DNA from: an uncultured Candidatus Saccharibacteria bacterium
GTDB lineage: Bacteria; Patescibacteriota; Saccharimonadia; Saccharimonadales; Saccharimonadaceae
Reading direction: 5' to 3'
Assembly: GCA_946530935.1 (NCBI GenBank)
Contig: CAMNAJ010000002.1
Span: 1-48,269 of the forward strand
DNA length: 48,269 nt
Shown: positions 22,332-27,141 of the stretch, one piece after another
Layout of the letters: every line of letters starts with the position of its first letter
Position numbering within the stretch: the first letter of the stretch is position 1
The notes under the pieces: generated by a model
What the model was told of the DNA's origin: nothing
The model's input: only the letters and a program-made list of their open reading frames with translations
Databases searched by the model: none
Translations under genes and position numbers: made by a program

Positions 22332-24068
22332 CTACGCTTTCGGTTTAATTTTATAGTAATCAATAATGTATCTTGAAAGTGAGTCAAATAAATCCATGGC
22401 GTCACCACTACCAATTGCTTGACCTTCGCCCCACATTTTAATCATGACAACATAGCTTGGCATCTCCCCTGCTGTGCCGATAAAGCCCATATAAGAACCA
22501 ATAAGGTTATTCATTTCATTATCATACGAACCGTTAACAATAACTTGTGCAGTACCAGTTTTGCCACCAATAGAATAACCCGGGCGATCGGTACCATTAC
22601 GAACTTTCCAACTACGGTTGTTGATAAGAAGATCGCGCATAATTGAGCTGGTTTCAGAAGATAATATTTGTTCTTCAACAGTTTCACGGTTTTCGAGTGG
22701 TTTGATTTCGCCATTCTTTTCTAATGTACCCTTTACGATGGAAGGTGTACGCCAATAACCACCATTTATAACAGCCGAAAAAGCCGTCGCGGTTTGAATC
22801 ATTGTGATGCCTAGGTTTTGTCCGAAAGTCATGTTGGCATAGGTTGAATTGCGGCCCCAACCTTCGTTTGGATCTTCAATGTATCCCTCTGCCTCAATGA
22901 GCTCAATACCAGTGGCGCGACCAAGACGGAATTTGTTGTGATAGTAGTCATAAAGCTTTTCCCTGCCTTTTTGATTGATTTCATCAGGGTTGTCACCGAG
23001 AAGCTTCAAAGCGTGAATTGAGCCTGTATTAAGAGACCAATAAAGTGCATCCATCATAGATATTTCGCCGTATAAACTAGAGCGAGTTTCGGCATTCCAG
23101 ATTTTCCAATCGTCAACTACTTCAAAGTGACGGTTGAAATAAGTGGTGGCACCGTTCATTTTTCCTTCATTAATGGCGGCGGAATAGGTAAAGCTTTTGC
23201 AGATGGAGGCTGGCTCGTACGGGACTTCGGTTACCTGATTAATATAGGCTGAGGCATCTTTGACATGACCGTAATTTGCAGGGTCGTAATTTGGCAAATT
23301 TGCCATTGCAAGAACGACACCGGTATTTGGGTCCATAACAAGTACGGCGGCATGGTCGGCGGCGGTATTATTAATGGCGTTAATTGCCCGCTCTTCAATG
23401 CCTTTTTCGAGATTACGATCAACGCTTAAAACAATGTTTTTGCCATCTTCGGCTGGAATTTTAATATTATCGGAGCCAATAGAGAGAGCGACTTTATTTA
23501 CGTCGGCGATAGTTTTTAATGTCCCTTCTTTACCGGTCAAAATTTTGTTTAGTGAGCCTTCGGTACCATATTGGCCAAGACCGTCGGCATTTACAAAGCC
23601 AAGCATACCAGAAGCCATTTCACCTTCTGGATAAACGCGAGCGTTGCCTTCCTTTAGCCAAACGCTACTAATTCCCTCTTCTGCGATAGCAACGGCATTT
23701 GTATAAGGAACATTTTTAGCAACAATATAATATCTTAATCCTTCAATGTTATATACTTCGTCGAGATTTGCTGTGATGTATTTTTTTGCGTGAGTTTCTA
23801 GAGCTTTTTTAATATCTTCTTTACTAGTAACAGCTGGATCGATGACGACAGAATAGACAGTTTGATTTAATACAACTGCGACTGGCTCGTTGCCGTCCAT
23901 CATATATATTTCTCCGCGTTTTGGCGAAATGGTTTCTAGGATTGTGTGTTTTTCATTGGCCTTTGCGACCCACATATCGTGTTCTACGATTTGAATGAAA
24001 AATAGTCGCACAGCAATAATAGCCAATGCGACAAAGACAGTTTTCTTAAGGATATTAATCCGCGACAT
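22332..24068 (-). CDS. ftsI: Penicillin-binding protein 2 / FtsI-type transpeptidase
   Basis: YEPASICKSFTYSAAI (SxxK), SLNTGS (SxN), GGKTGTAQ (KTG). Confidence 0.9.
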   Translation of the reverse strand: MSRINILKKTVFVALAIIAVRLFFIQIVEHDMWVAKANEKHTILETISPKRGEIYMMDGNEPVAVVLNQTVYSVVIDPAVTSKEDIKKALETHAKKYITANLDEVYNIEGLRYYIVAKNVPYTNAVAIAEEGISSVWLKEGNARVYPEGEMASGMLGFVNADGLGQYGTEGSLNKILTGKEGTLKTIADVNKVALSIGSDNIKIPAEDGKNIVLSVDRNLEKGIEERAINAINNTAADHAAVLVMDPNTGVVLAMANLPNYDPANYGHVKDASAYINQVTEVPYEPASICKSFTYSAAINEGKMNGATTYFNRHFEVVDDWKIWNAETRSSLYGEISMMDALYWSLNTGSIHALKLLGDNPDEINQKGREKLYDYYHNKFRLGRATGIELIEAEGYIEDPNEGWGRNSTYANMTFGQNLGITMIQTATAFSAVINGGYWRTPSIVKGTLEKNGEIKPLENRETVEEQILSSETSSIMRDLLINNRSWKVRNGTDRPGYSIGGKTGTAQVIVNGSYDNEMNNLIGSYMGFIGTAGEMPSYVVMIKMWGEGQAIGSGDAMDLFDSLSRYIIDYYKIKPKA

Positions 24069-24399
24069 AACCTGTTACCGTGGCGTCTTCCATGACGGCA
24101 GCAACAGTACTATTTTTAGCTGCAGCAACAGATGTTAGGCGCGCTTTTTCAACAGCGAGGTCGTCACGACGGGCGGTCATTTCGGAAATTTCGGATTCTA
24201 CATCAGAAATTTGGTAATCAAGGCCGGTTGCTTTAGTGCCTTCTGCTACGTAGATCAGTCCAAATACAAGCGTAAGCATAGCAACAATAATGGTTTGGGA
24301 AATAGTTCCGAGACTTCTTTTAGTATGTCGGACGATGTTACGATTTCTGACGAAGCCGGCACTCACCTCTCTCCTCGACACGTATGTTTGACTGATCAT
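24055..24399 (-). CDS. ftsL: FtsL-like single-TM coiled-coil protein
   Basis: one TM, then a heptad-like region; located between rsmH and ftsI. Confidence 0.65.
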   Translation of the reverse strand: MISQTYVSRREVSAGFVRNRNIVRHTKRSLGTISQTIIVAMLTLVFGLIYVAEGTKATGLDYQISDVESEISEMTARRDDLAVEKARLTSVAAAKNSTVAAVMEDATVTGYVAD

Positions 24400-24465
24400 T
24401 TTTTTGTTTTTCCTCGCTTGGTTTATAATTCTGTTTATTTTTGTTTTTTCACTTTTGTGTTTGTC

Positions 24466-24700
24466 TTAGTCCGAGGGCTCTTACAAGCAGAGCTATAAGT
24501 AACCTGTAAGAGCTTGCTCGGGAAGGTCATACACTTCACACTCTCGTGAAAAACTCTAAGTTTTGGCGGACCCGAAGGCCCATGTCACTAGTCTCAGGAA
24601 TCCGGGCGGGATGCCCCCGCCCGGCGGAAGGACTAGCGGAAGTGTACTTTGACGACTTGTTTGCGAGATTTATTCGCAACTAAAATTTGCTTTGGCATAT
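24466..24700 (-). promoter_or_regulatory. Highly structured leader/intercistronic RNA candidate in the dcw cluster
   Basis: nested inverted repeats: TACACTTC/GAAGTGTA closing stem; CTAGTC/GACTAG; 9-bp CCGGGCGGG/CCCGCCCGG; GGGCC-UUCG-GGUCC; AAAACT/AGTTTT; CCGAG..GCTCTTACA/TGTAAGAGC..CTCGG; TTGCGA/TCGCAA. Confidence 0.75.
24633..24698 (-). CDS. 21-aa basic leader peptide MPKQILVANKSRKQVVKVHFR
   Basis: AAAAGGAGG SD 6 nt upstream of ATG; stop codon lies inside the CTAGTC/GACTAG stem. Confidence 0.55.
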   Translation of the reverse strand: MPKQILVANKSRKQVVKVHFR

Positions 24701-24732
24701 TTGCCTCCTTTTATGTTTTGTTTTTATTTTTA

Positions 24733-25605
24733 TCAATTCCGCGTGACTACTCGCAGTTTGGCGCTTCTAGCTCGCGGGTTGATAACTAACTCCTGGTTTG
24801 CCGCAATAATTGGTTTTTTAGTTCCCTGGCTAAGTTCTGACTCTTCACCATGGCTCGTAGCTTCTTTAAAATAGTCTTTGACAAGACGATCTTCTAAGCT
24901 ATGAAAGGTGATGATGCCGACACGACCATTTTTATTTAGTAGTTTCGGAAGTAGCGGTAAAGTTTTTTCGATTTCAGTCAGTTCATCATTTACTACTATG
25001 CGAATGGCTTGGAACAATTTGGTAGCTGGATGAATGTGACTATGTCTAGATTTACTTGCGATAATTTCAGCAAGTTCGCTAGTAGATTTGATCGGGCGAT
25101 GATGTACGATTTCGCGTGCTAAGAGCCTTGCATGACCAGGTTTCTCTTCTCCATATTTTACAAAAATTTCTGCAAGGTTTTTTTCGCTCCAGTGATTAAC
25201 TATATCGTCTGCAGTTAATTTCTGGCGCCGATCCATCCGCATGTCTAAAGGACCGTCGTTTCGGAAAGAAAAGCCACGTTCCCCATTATCCAGTTGCGGC
25301 GAAGAAACACCAAAATCCGCTAGTATCATGTCAAAAGTCTTTCCACACTCAATTAACTGTAGCACTGCGCCATAAAAGTCTGTGTTTAGTAAAGTAAGAT
25401 CCGCTGGGAATTTTTGCTTTAGGTGCTCTATTGCAAATTCGTCGCGATCTACTAATACCGAATCTTTATAATTCAGTGTTACATCCAAAATTGATTTAGC
25501 GTGCCCACCGAGGCCAGCAGTTAAATCTAAATAAGATTCGCCTGGACGAGGGTTTAGGTTTGCTAATACTTCAGACAATAATACAGGGATATGTTGATTC
25601 TCCAT
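24733..25605 (-). CDS. rsmH: 16S rRNA (cytosine1402-N4)-methyltransferase RsmH/MraW
   Basis: HIPVLLSEVLANLNPRPGESYLDLTAGLGGHA; DFGVSSPQLD; start re-assigned from 25686 to ATG 6 nt after TATAAT. Confidence 0.93.
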   Translation of the reverse strand: MENQHIPVLLSEVLANLNPRPGESYLDLTAGLGGHAKSILDVTLNYKDSVLVDRDEFAIEHLKQKFPADLTLLNTDFYGAVLQLIECGKTFDMILADFGVSSPQLDNGERGFSFRNDGPLDMRMDRRQKLTADDIVNHWSEKNLAEIFVKYGEEKPGHARLLAREIVHHRPIKSTSELAEIIASKSRHSHIHPATKLFQAIRIVVNDELTEIEKTLPLLPKLLNKNGRVGIITFHSLEDRLVKDYFKEATSHGEESELSQGTKKPIIAANQELVINPRARSAKLRVVTRN

Positions 25606-26163
25606 ACCTATATTATACATTGTTTGAGATCGATCAACTAGAAACTTAGCATGTTTGTTTCTGTTATGATTTTTGTTTGATTTCACAATGAATCTACCAC
25701 GATTGTACCAGCGCGAAGCTAATCATATAATCGCAGCCGTTGAGAGACTTATTGTGTTTAGATTGACCTAATGGTCTATAGAGTTTTATTGGGAGGTGTG
25801 TTTAAGGAATGTGCACACGATTTTTTTGACGCATCTCGCTAAAAATTAATGCGTGCTAAAGCTCCTAGTTGGCCGATCTCAAACTTTTTTAAGGTGCTTA
25901 TTTGTTTGTGGTGTTTATGTATGATTCCACTTGACTTGAGTTTATACTATTTTTTTGAAAAAAGCAAGAGCTTTTTTGGACTTTTTTAAACAATTTTGCG
26001 ATCTTGGAGTTTTCCACAAATGTGCATAAGTTCCCTGTTATTTTTACCGAACAAACGCTATTGATTTTTGTATATTTTTATTTCATAAAACCCGAACAAA
26101 CGGAGAAAAATTGGTGATTTTACGGTTTTGTGGTATGATAAATTCAAATAAGTGGAGATAATC

Positions 26164-27141
26164 ATGGAAAATGAACCGTTTGACGTCTTTCTCTGGGCGA
26201 ACGAGATTGACGAGATAAAAAACAACGTATCGGCAGAGCTATTTCTGTTTAATAAGAACTATACGCCTTACAAGATTAAGTATTCCGACAAGCTGACCGG
26301 CGCTGTAAAATCGATGTTTATGCAAGAGGCAATTCACTATATTATCGAGGAAGCAGATAAAGGGCTGGAATGCCGCGAATATGAGAAGGCTGATGGCGAA
26401 GAAAAGGTAATTTATCGTACTTCCCTCTCTAAAGTCGGCCGTGCCGAGACTTTGATTCATCTGATTGAAAACGAATACAAAGACATTGATTATTTCTCCG
26501 AAAACGAATATGACTTTAAAAAAGTCAAAGGTATTATTGCTAAGTTTACTTATCCTGGTGAATCAGGGATGAAAACTTTTTACATTGCGAAGATTATCTC
26601 CGCTTCGTCTGCACTTAAGGGTGCTTCGTCGTGGGAGATCAACGGCGAAAGCTTTGAGCCGTTTTCCGCCGAAATCGCGCTCAAAATGCCAGATGACAAT
26701 CAAGTCGCAATTGTGGATGGTACAATTATTGTGTTCAACCAAGCAAAATTTGAGAACTTATTCCAATACGATTACAAATCACAGGTGATCGCAGAGGCGA
26801 AAGCCAAAGAACTCACTGAAAAATACAAGCTTTCGTTCGCGGAAGGGTTAACTCTTGATACGCTACTTCAGGACAAAAAACCAATTTTAAAGAAGCTTCA
26901 GGCGATGGATATCGCAGAAGAAATGCCACAAGACAAACTACTAGATTACGCAGACGAAATGCAACTTGAACTAATGACAGATAATGATGGCTCTATTATC
27001 ATCATGGATGATAAAGATCTCACGATGTTTGTAAATCTATTAAATGAAGATTATTACGTTTCGCCAGTAAACGGACGCCGCTATGAGATTAAATCAAAGA
27101 AATTACTCGGCGAGCCAGATGGCGAACCACCTAGAGGTTAA
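26164..27141 (+). CDS. DUF4868-family (KwaB-like) protein
   Basis: 329-aa ORF (326 aa from the re-assigned ATG, start moved from 26152); NQVAIVDGTIIVFNQAKFENLFQYDYKSQVIAEAKA segment resembles DUF4868/KwaB. Confidence 0.55.
   Translation: MENEPFDVFLWANEIDEIKNNVSAELFLFNKNYTPYKIKYSDKLTGAVKSMFMQEAIHYIIEEADKGLECREYEKADGEEKVIYRTSLSKVGRAETLIHLIENEYKDIDYFSENEYDFKKVKGIIAKFTYPGESGMKTFYIAKIISASSALKGASSWEINGESFEPFSAEIALKMPDDNQVAIVDGTIIVFNQAKFENLFQYDYKSQVIAEAKAKELTEKYKLSFAEGLTLDTLLQDKKPILKKLQAMDIAEEMPQDKLLDYADEMQLELMTDNDGSIIIMDDKDLTMFVNLLNEDYYVSPVNGRRYEIKSKKLLGEPDGEPPRG

Follow-up and report, generated by a model that had tools for sequence, protein, structure and literature searches.

In Actinomycetales, the 5′ region of mraW harbors the mraW RNA motif. 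This structured RNA (RF01746) was reported from Actinomycetales by Weinberg et al. (2010; PMC2864571). Like the element described here it is linked to mraW/rsmH within the dcw cluster; however, the Saccharibacteria element is situated after rsmH and is not matched by the covariance model of the motif. Riboswitches and ribosomal-protein leader RNAs resemble it in that they, too, are conserved leaders present in one copy ahead of a biosynthetic operon, with loops that hardly vary, but the element matches none of the 4227 Rfam families and has no visible expression platform. Ribosome-mediated leader peptides of the TnaC, Trp, and Erm type also consist of a short ORF led by a Shine–Dalgarno sequence and followed by alternative stems, and in some members of the family described here the stop codon lies in a stem. 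In contrast to these systems, the peptide encoded here is found class-wide, also where the RNA is missing, its C-terminus is variable, and neither a terminator nor a block of the ribosome-binding site is seen.

tmRNA and RNase P RNA are structured RNAs of comparable length, and tmRNA also carries a short ORF. Both were rejected as identities of the element: there is no tRNA-like domain (ARAGORN, RF00023) and no match to RF00010 in the gap, and the true tmRNA and RNase P RNA are found at G000:C22:2999–3355 and G000:C31:3876–4214, respectively. A self-splicing intron was considered and set aside, with no conserved downstream exon seen in the alignments. The searched literature on noncoding RNA, riboswitches, the division cluster, and microproteins of Saccharibacteria, which included few subscription papers, describes neither the RNA nor the peptide.

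The gap between rsmH and ftsL

The window is a stretch of 48,269 nucleotides from an uncultured Candidatus Saccharibacteria bacterium (contig CAMNAJ010000002.1). Its minus strand carries rsmH, an ftsL-like gene, ftsI, an mraY-type gene, ftsW, and a murG-type gene, assigned by Pfam except for ftsL, which was assigned by position. Between rsmH (mraW; minus strand, 24733–25686; PF01795, E 1.6e-91) and the ftsL-like gene (minus strand, 24055–24399; 46–83% identity in relatives, without a Pfam match) there is a gap of 333 nt which contains a micro-ORF and a structured RNA. The synteny is strict, as the element was found between rsmH and ftsL in 22 of 22 loci compared. A first-pass annotation of this DNA had argued that the gap is not an ordinary spacer, and this view holds, since the gap harbors both a coding peptide and a structured RNA family; the stems and the ORF named there are all located in the sequence where they had been placed. 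The checks proposed at that time, a comparison with Rfam, covariation in related gaps, and conservation of the peptide, have been carried out and yielded no known class and compensatory changes; the peptide is treated below.

A search with cmscan against the 4227 Rfam families gave no match either at gathering scores or at E values up to 10; the scan of positions 24380–24760 to E 10 brought up only RF02699 (E 2.6) and RF01553 (E 2.7), both far under the gathering scores. As no known family is found even at E 10, we reject a known Rfam family as the identity of the element. Pfam and NCBIfam likewise gave no match for the module of micro-ORF and RNA.

A conserved microprotein gene

The micro-ORF (minus strand, 24633–24698) comprises 21 codons and a TAG stop codon and encodes MPKQILVANKSRKQVVKVHFR. 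It is preceded by the strong Shine–Dalgarno sequence AAAAGGAGG (24704–24712, minus strand), and GGAG is present ahead of 107 of 108 homologous ORFs. The 94 distinct 21-codon versions from 108 loci of the genus have a dN/dS of 0.11, and in these 94 ORFs the differences at the third codon position amount to 0.45 versus 0.18 and 0.10 at the other two. Purifying selection on the protein, a start signal, and a constant location are thus found together, as well as matches to a profile of the ORF, and the proposed 21-codon ORF is truly coding. It is a real gene for a protein of about 20 amino acids that was previously unannotated. No relatives of the microprotein were found in Pfam, NCBIfam, or PDB. 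Gene callers skip ORFs this short, which is probably why the gene is missing from Pfam and NCBIfam.

Beyond the genus, the micro-ORF profile matched 28 of 61 genera of the family at E 0.1, some of them weakly, and 64 of 104 sampled genera of the order at E 0.01; where the loci from these searches could be checked, the micro-ORF was situated between rsmH and ftsL or ftsI. Inspection by eye of the region after rsmH revealed a basic micro-ORF of 19–27 residues led by a Shine–Dalgarno sequence in 18 of 18 further testable genomes, 11 of them from other orders of the class; several of these ORFs had escaped the profile, and for the divergent ones homology was judged from place, size, and pattern and not from a significant score. 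One mechanical rule scored a micro-ORF in 63 of 74 loci of the class versus none of 30 loci of other Patescibacteria classes, where ftsL usually follows close behind rsmH. All Saccharibacteria genomes that could be read have such a micro-ORF after rsmH, mostly basic and 19–24 residues long, and outside the two RNA-bearing genera third-position differences are 0.56 versus 0.22 and 0.18. Our results show that the gene for a basic microprotein of ∼20 residues is conserved throughout the class Saccharibacteria.

The C-terminal residues of the microprotein vary among the members (FR, FC, FF, FY, VG, HK, and FKKSN), and its middle is better conserved than its end. Because of this pattern, and because the gene is present in genomes without the RNA, it is unlikely that the microprotein is merely a leader peptide of the RNA, as had been proposed. 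One could also imagine that the microprotein binds the RNA downstream of its own gene and thereby autoregulates the operon. It is encoded in cis, it is small and basic (a net charge of +5 is common), and hydrophobic and basic residues alternate in its sequence. Nevertheless, it is conserved in genomes devoid of the RNA; therefore, binding the RNA cannot be its original task, and we consider autoregulation very unlikely.

Structure and covariation of the RNA

The minus strand folds with a z score of −6.4 relative to shuffled sequences (0 of 200 shuffles as good), compared to −2.8 for the plus strand. The conserved core (model R1; minus strand, 24464–24588; match in G000 with E 9.5e-27) was analyzed for covariation in 76 sequences. 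RNAalifold proposed 18 pairs, 14 of which show double compensation. The model tested comprises 27 pairs, namely the RNAalifold pairs, the candidate kissing pairs, and a basal CUU/AAG helix; here 247 cells are double compensated, versus 54 ± 10 in shuffled controls and 24–49 when the partners were slid. Compensatory substitutions exceed both kinds of control, as is typical of a structured RNA family. In addition, we compared the pairing of each sequence's own strands with that of strands exchanged between sequences, a swapped-partner test in which relatedness stays uncorrected.

The UUCG-capped hairpin of the first-pass annotation, P2 (minus strand, 24568–24581), is formed by GGGCC/GGUCC (24577–24581 with 24568–24572) and flanked by the conserved motifs ACAUGG and CCRCCA. 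It is conserved in relatives with compensatory changes: 99.6% of cells are paired, double changes occur at three pairs, and the swapped-partner z is −17. In several loci (L035, L050, L073, L077, L099, and others) the P2 loop is AGAGUGUG and equals the conserved GAGAGUGUG motif near P3b.

The long last hairpin, P4 (minus strand, 24471–24521), has also been confirmed by conservation and compensatory changes. Its lower part CCGAG/CUCGG (24517–24521 with 24471–24475) and upper part GCUCUUACA/UGUAAGAGC (24505–24513 with 24477–24485) give swapped-partner z values of −16 and −33, respectively, and 11 of the 12 modelled pairs show double changes. In helices P4 and P2 the compensations are numerous and of many types, despite the kinship left in the swapped-partner test. 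The terminal loop of P4, ACUUAUAGCUCUG (24488–24500, minus strand), is near invariant, partly by construction as it belongs to the selection pattern, and it is largely retained in relatives that were detected independently of the pattern. The same applies to the invariance within ATGACCTTYC and ACTTATNGCTCTG, which is partly built in because the loci from the species genomes were picked by the exact pattern; members found by other routes depart slightly, with ACTTTTGGCTCTG in L231 and ATGACCTTAC in L236. A strong departure is L021 (G033, same genus, found by DNA search), which retains the micro-ORF but is without the ACAUGG/P2 part and differs in its P4 loop.

Helix P3b (UUCAC..GUGAA) has a swapped-partner z of −6.9. 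The proposed AAAACT/AGTTTT hairpin, P3, is clear in a few members, for example, L022 and L045, but as a general feature it is weak and was rejected (swapped-partner z of −1.4). The 9-bp GC-rich hairpin CCGGGCGGG/CCCGCCCGG inside P1 (minus strand, 24602–24624) is present in this sequence as described, in a region that is variable in sequence and length among relatives. AGAGUU (24552–24557, minus strand) is a candidate kissing partner of the P4 loop. The AGAGU/GCUCU pairs are compatible in 96% of cells with zero double compensations, and the P4 loop may kiss AGAGU. Long insertions separate conserved parts of the RNA in L098 and L130; in L098 about 430 nt lie between the stop codon of the micro-ORF and the UAUGACC segment of the core. 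Mimicry of the anti-Shine–Dalgarno sequence by the GACCUUCC/GACCUCCUUU segment was considered. Conservation of sequence extends beyond the stems to loops and joints, and these near-invariant parts would argue for the binding of a ligand or a protein.

Distribution of the RNA

A DNA search in a sample of 60 genomes detected the element in 22 genomes of the same genus and in none of 24 genomes from other families. The core pattern has 113 matching stretches in 85,462 species genomes; among the 80 listed, all are from Saccharibacteria, many of them from rumen and gut, and they include Candidatus Nanosyncoccus alces, a member of this genus. Within 295 genomes of the class, the pattern is confined to this genus and occurs at most once per genome. 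In a sample of 199 genomes of the family, the covariance model R1 matched 17 of 17 same-genus genomes and six genomes of genus g32; a further pair of matches at about E 0.03 from two other genera may be due to chance. The g32 matches (E 2e-8 to 0.05) lie between the micro-ORF and ftsL and have compensatory changes of their own in P4. As had been stated for this RNA, its place is always between rsmH and ftsL. It is a new structured family, found in this genus and recognizably in one related genus. In the gaps of g32 (L207, L205, L224, L197, and others) UUUUGACCGAUAAA occurs up to three times between the micro-ORF and the core and echoes the core segment UUUUGACCUUC.

A search of IMG/VR with the core pattern gave zero matches. 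A mobile or viral origin of the element was rejected on this ground and on its single copy.

Alternatively, the element might be a noncoding RNA, released by processing or made on its own, that acts in trans or in a ribonucleoprotein and owes only its expression to the operon location. This would agree with the highly conserved sequence and compact core, with the open ribosome site of ftsL, and with the tolerance of insertions of ∼300 nt that separate the micro-ORF from the core (L098). However, the element is always found between the same two genes and never elsewhere in the genome, and no terminator defines a 3′ end, so that we regard a trans-acting RNA as improbable.

The hairpin position after the micro-ORF

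Elsewhere in the order and class, where the RNA is missing, what comes after the micro-ORF is mostly a strong hairpin of simple build. Class-wide, the 100 nt after the stop codon of the micro-ORF have a median folding z of −4.0, with 77% of the values below −2. We therefore regard the structured RNA found in this genus and in g32 as a probable elaboration of a class-wide hairpin position. A strong hairpin that is kept across the class without sequence conservation, together with the A-rich open linker ahead of ftsL, would be in line with a barrier to ribosomes or nucleases which keeps the strongly initiated micro-ORF insulated from ftsL and stabilizes the 5′ end of the ftsL–murG mRNA by its fold and not by a ligand. 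Such a barrier does not account for the conservation of loops and joints seen in this genus and in g32, and we deem it unlikely.

Possible coupling to translation and the expression platform

In the stop-codon stem P1, the Arg21 codon, the stop codon, and UC (24631–24638, minus strand) pair with GACUAGUG (24586–24593, minus strand). This stem, already recognized in the first-pass annotation, is supported by covariation and compensatory changes, with a swapped-partner z of −12.5 in favor of the native strands. In 22 of 99 members the whole stop codon is spanned by a helix of 8 bp or longer (swapped mean 8, maximum 14), and in 31 of 99 by one of 6 bp or longer (swapped mean 20, maximum 28). On the contrary, the proposed outer stem TACACTTC/GAAGTGTA was rejected; it is not conserved, and its own partners pair no better than swapped partners (z +2.0). 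The suggested coupling between translation of the peptide and folding thus stands for the stop-codon stem in about a third of the members and falls for the outer stem. Because P1 has this limited occurrence, we regard the coupling as a lineage feature: judging from the anatomy, translation of the micro-ORF could time folding in about a third of the members.

No intrinsic terminator was found in the gap and this candidate was rejected, in agreement with the earlier view that the structure is not a simple terminator. The Rho RNA-binding domain PF07497 had no match in 20 genomes of the genus, whereas 9 of 14 control genomes matched; the genus may lack Rho, and Rho attenuation was rejected on this evidence. 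CGAGGA (24411–24416, minus strand) is the likely Shine–Dalgarno sequence of ftsL, and the ribosome site of ftsL is predicted to be mostly unpaired, with a mean P(unpaired) of 0.63 versus 0.39 in the element. Our computations thus detected neither an intrinsic or Rho-dependent terminator nor sequestration of the ribosome-binding site, and standard attenuation or blocking of this site is therefore unsupported. In classical attenuation, stalling on the micro-ORF would flip the RNA between a fold that terminates transcription or blocks the ribosome-binding site and an open fold. The stop codon within P1 in about a third of the members would suit such a switch, but P1 is missing from most members, the outer stem is not conserved, the C-terminus of the microprotein is variable, and there is neither a terminator nor a match for Rho. 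We hold this mechanism to be highly improbable.

A possible cis-acting leader

We suggest that the gap is a two-part module, a class-wide microprotein gene followed by a hairpin region, and that in this genus and g32 the hairpin region became a compact RNA with P1 in part, P2, P3b, P4, and the conserved P4 loop. This RNA would be a cis-acting, aptamer-like leader for the ftsL–ftsI–mraY–ftsW–murG part of the dcw mRNA, and by binding a ligand or a protein it would determine how stable the downstream mRNA is, how it is processed, or how ribosomes move along it. Where P1 contains the stop codon, a ribosome ending the micro-ORF would have to melt P1, and translation would then time folding. Weighed in favor of a cis-acting leader were the synteny, the single copy per genome, covariation, the conserved loops and joints, the homologue in g32, selection on the micro-ORF, the class-wide structure, and the blank result in IMG/VR; weighed against it was that an expression platform is not visible, with no terminator, no Rho domain, and an open ftsL site. 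Taken together, we put the probability of such a cis-acting leader, with an effect on stability, processing, or ribosome traffic of the ftsL–murG mRNA, at roughly 45%. A direct control of ftsL would be suggested by position alone.

Saccharibacteria live as obligate epibionts and have reduced genomes; the literature searched contains no description of how their cell-wall synthesis and division are controlled. The new RNA family has strong covariation, and its location suggests a role in controlling peptidoglycan synthesis. It is conceivable, though rather doubtful, that the class-wide microprotein of ∼20 residues is an unrecognized component of division or translation and that in the lineage related to Nanosyncoccus its mRNA bears a sensing RNA of a new class, which adjusts peptidoglycan synthesis, possibly to host-supplied precursors, by a non-canonical output. 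In TM7x, UDP-GlcNAc synthesis is reported to be absent and peptidoglycan genes to be raised during host recovery (PMC10768705); based on this report we speculate that the signal might be a host-supplied wall precursor. Both the microprotein and the RNA are testable now, as transformation and mapping by Tn-seq are feasible in at least one member of the class (PMC10633639). This organism belongs to a different genus and therefore suits the microprotein, whereas the RNA needs a cultured relative of Nanosyncoccus or a heterologous reporter.

Neighboring genes

The rsmH ORF begins with a GTG codon at 25686; the alignment of relatives suggests that the true start is an internal ATG (MENQHIPVLL; window positions 25600–25686). 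Upstream of rsmH and divergent from it, the plus strand encodes a KwaB-like protein (26152–27141; PF16162, E 8.7e-9), possibly a defence gene of the Kiwa type.
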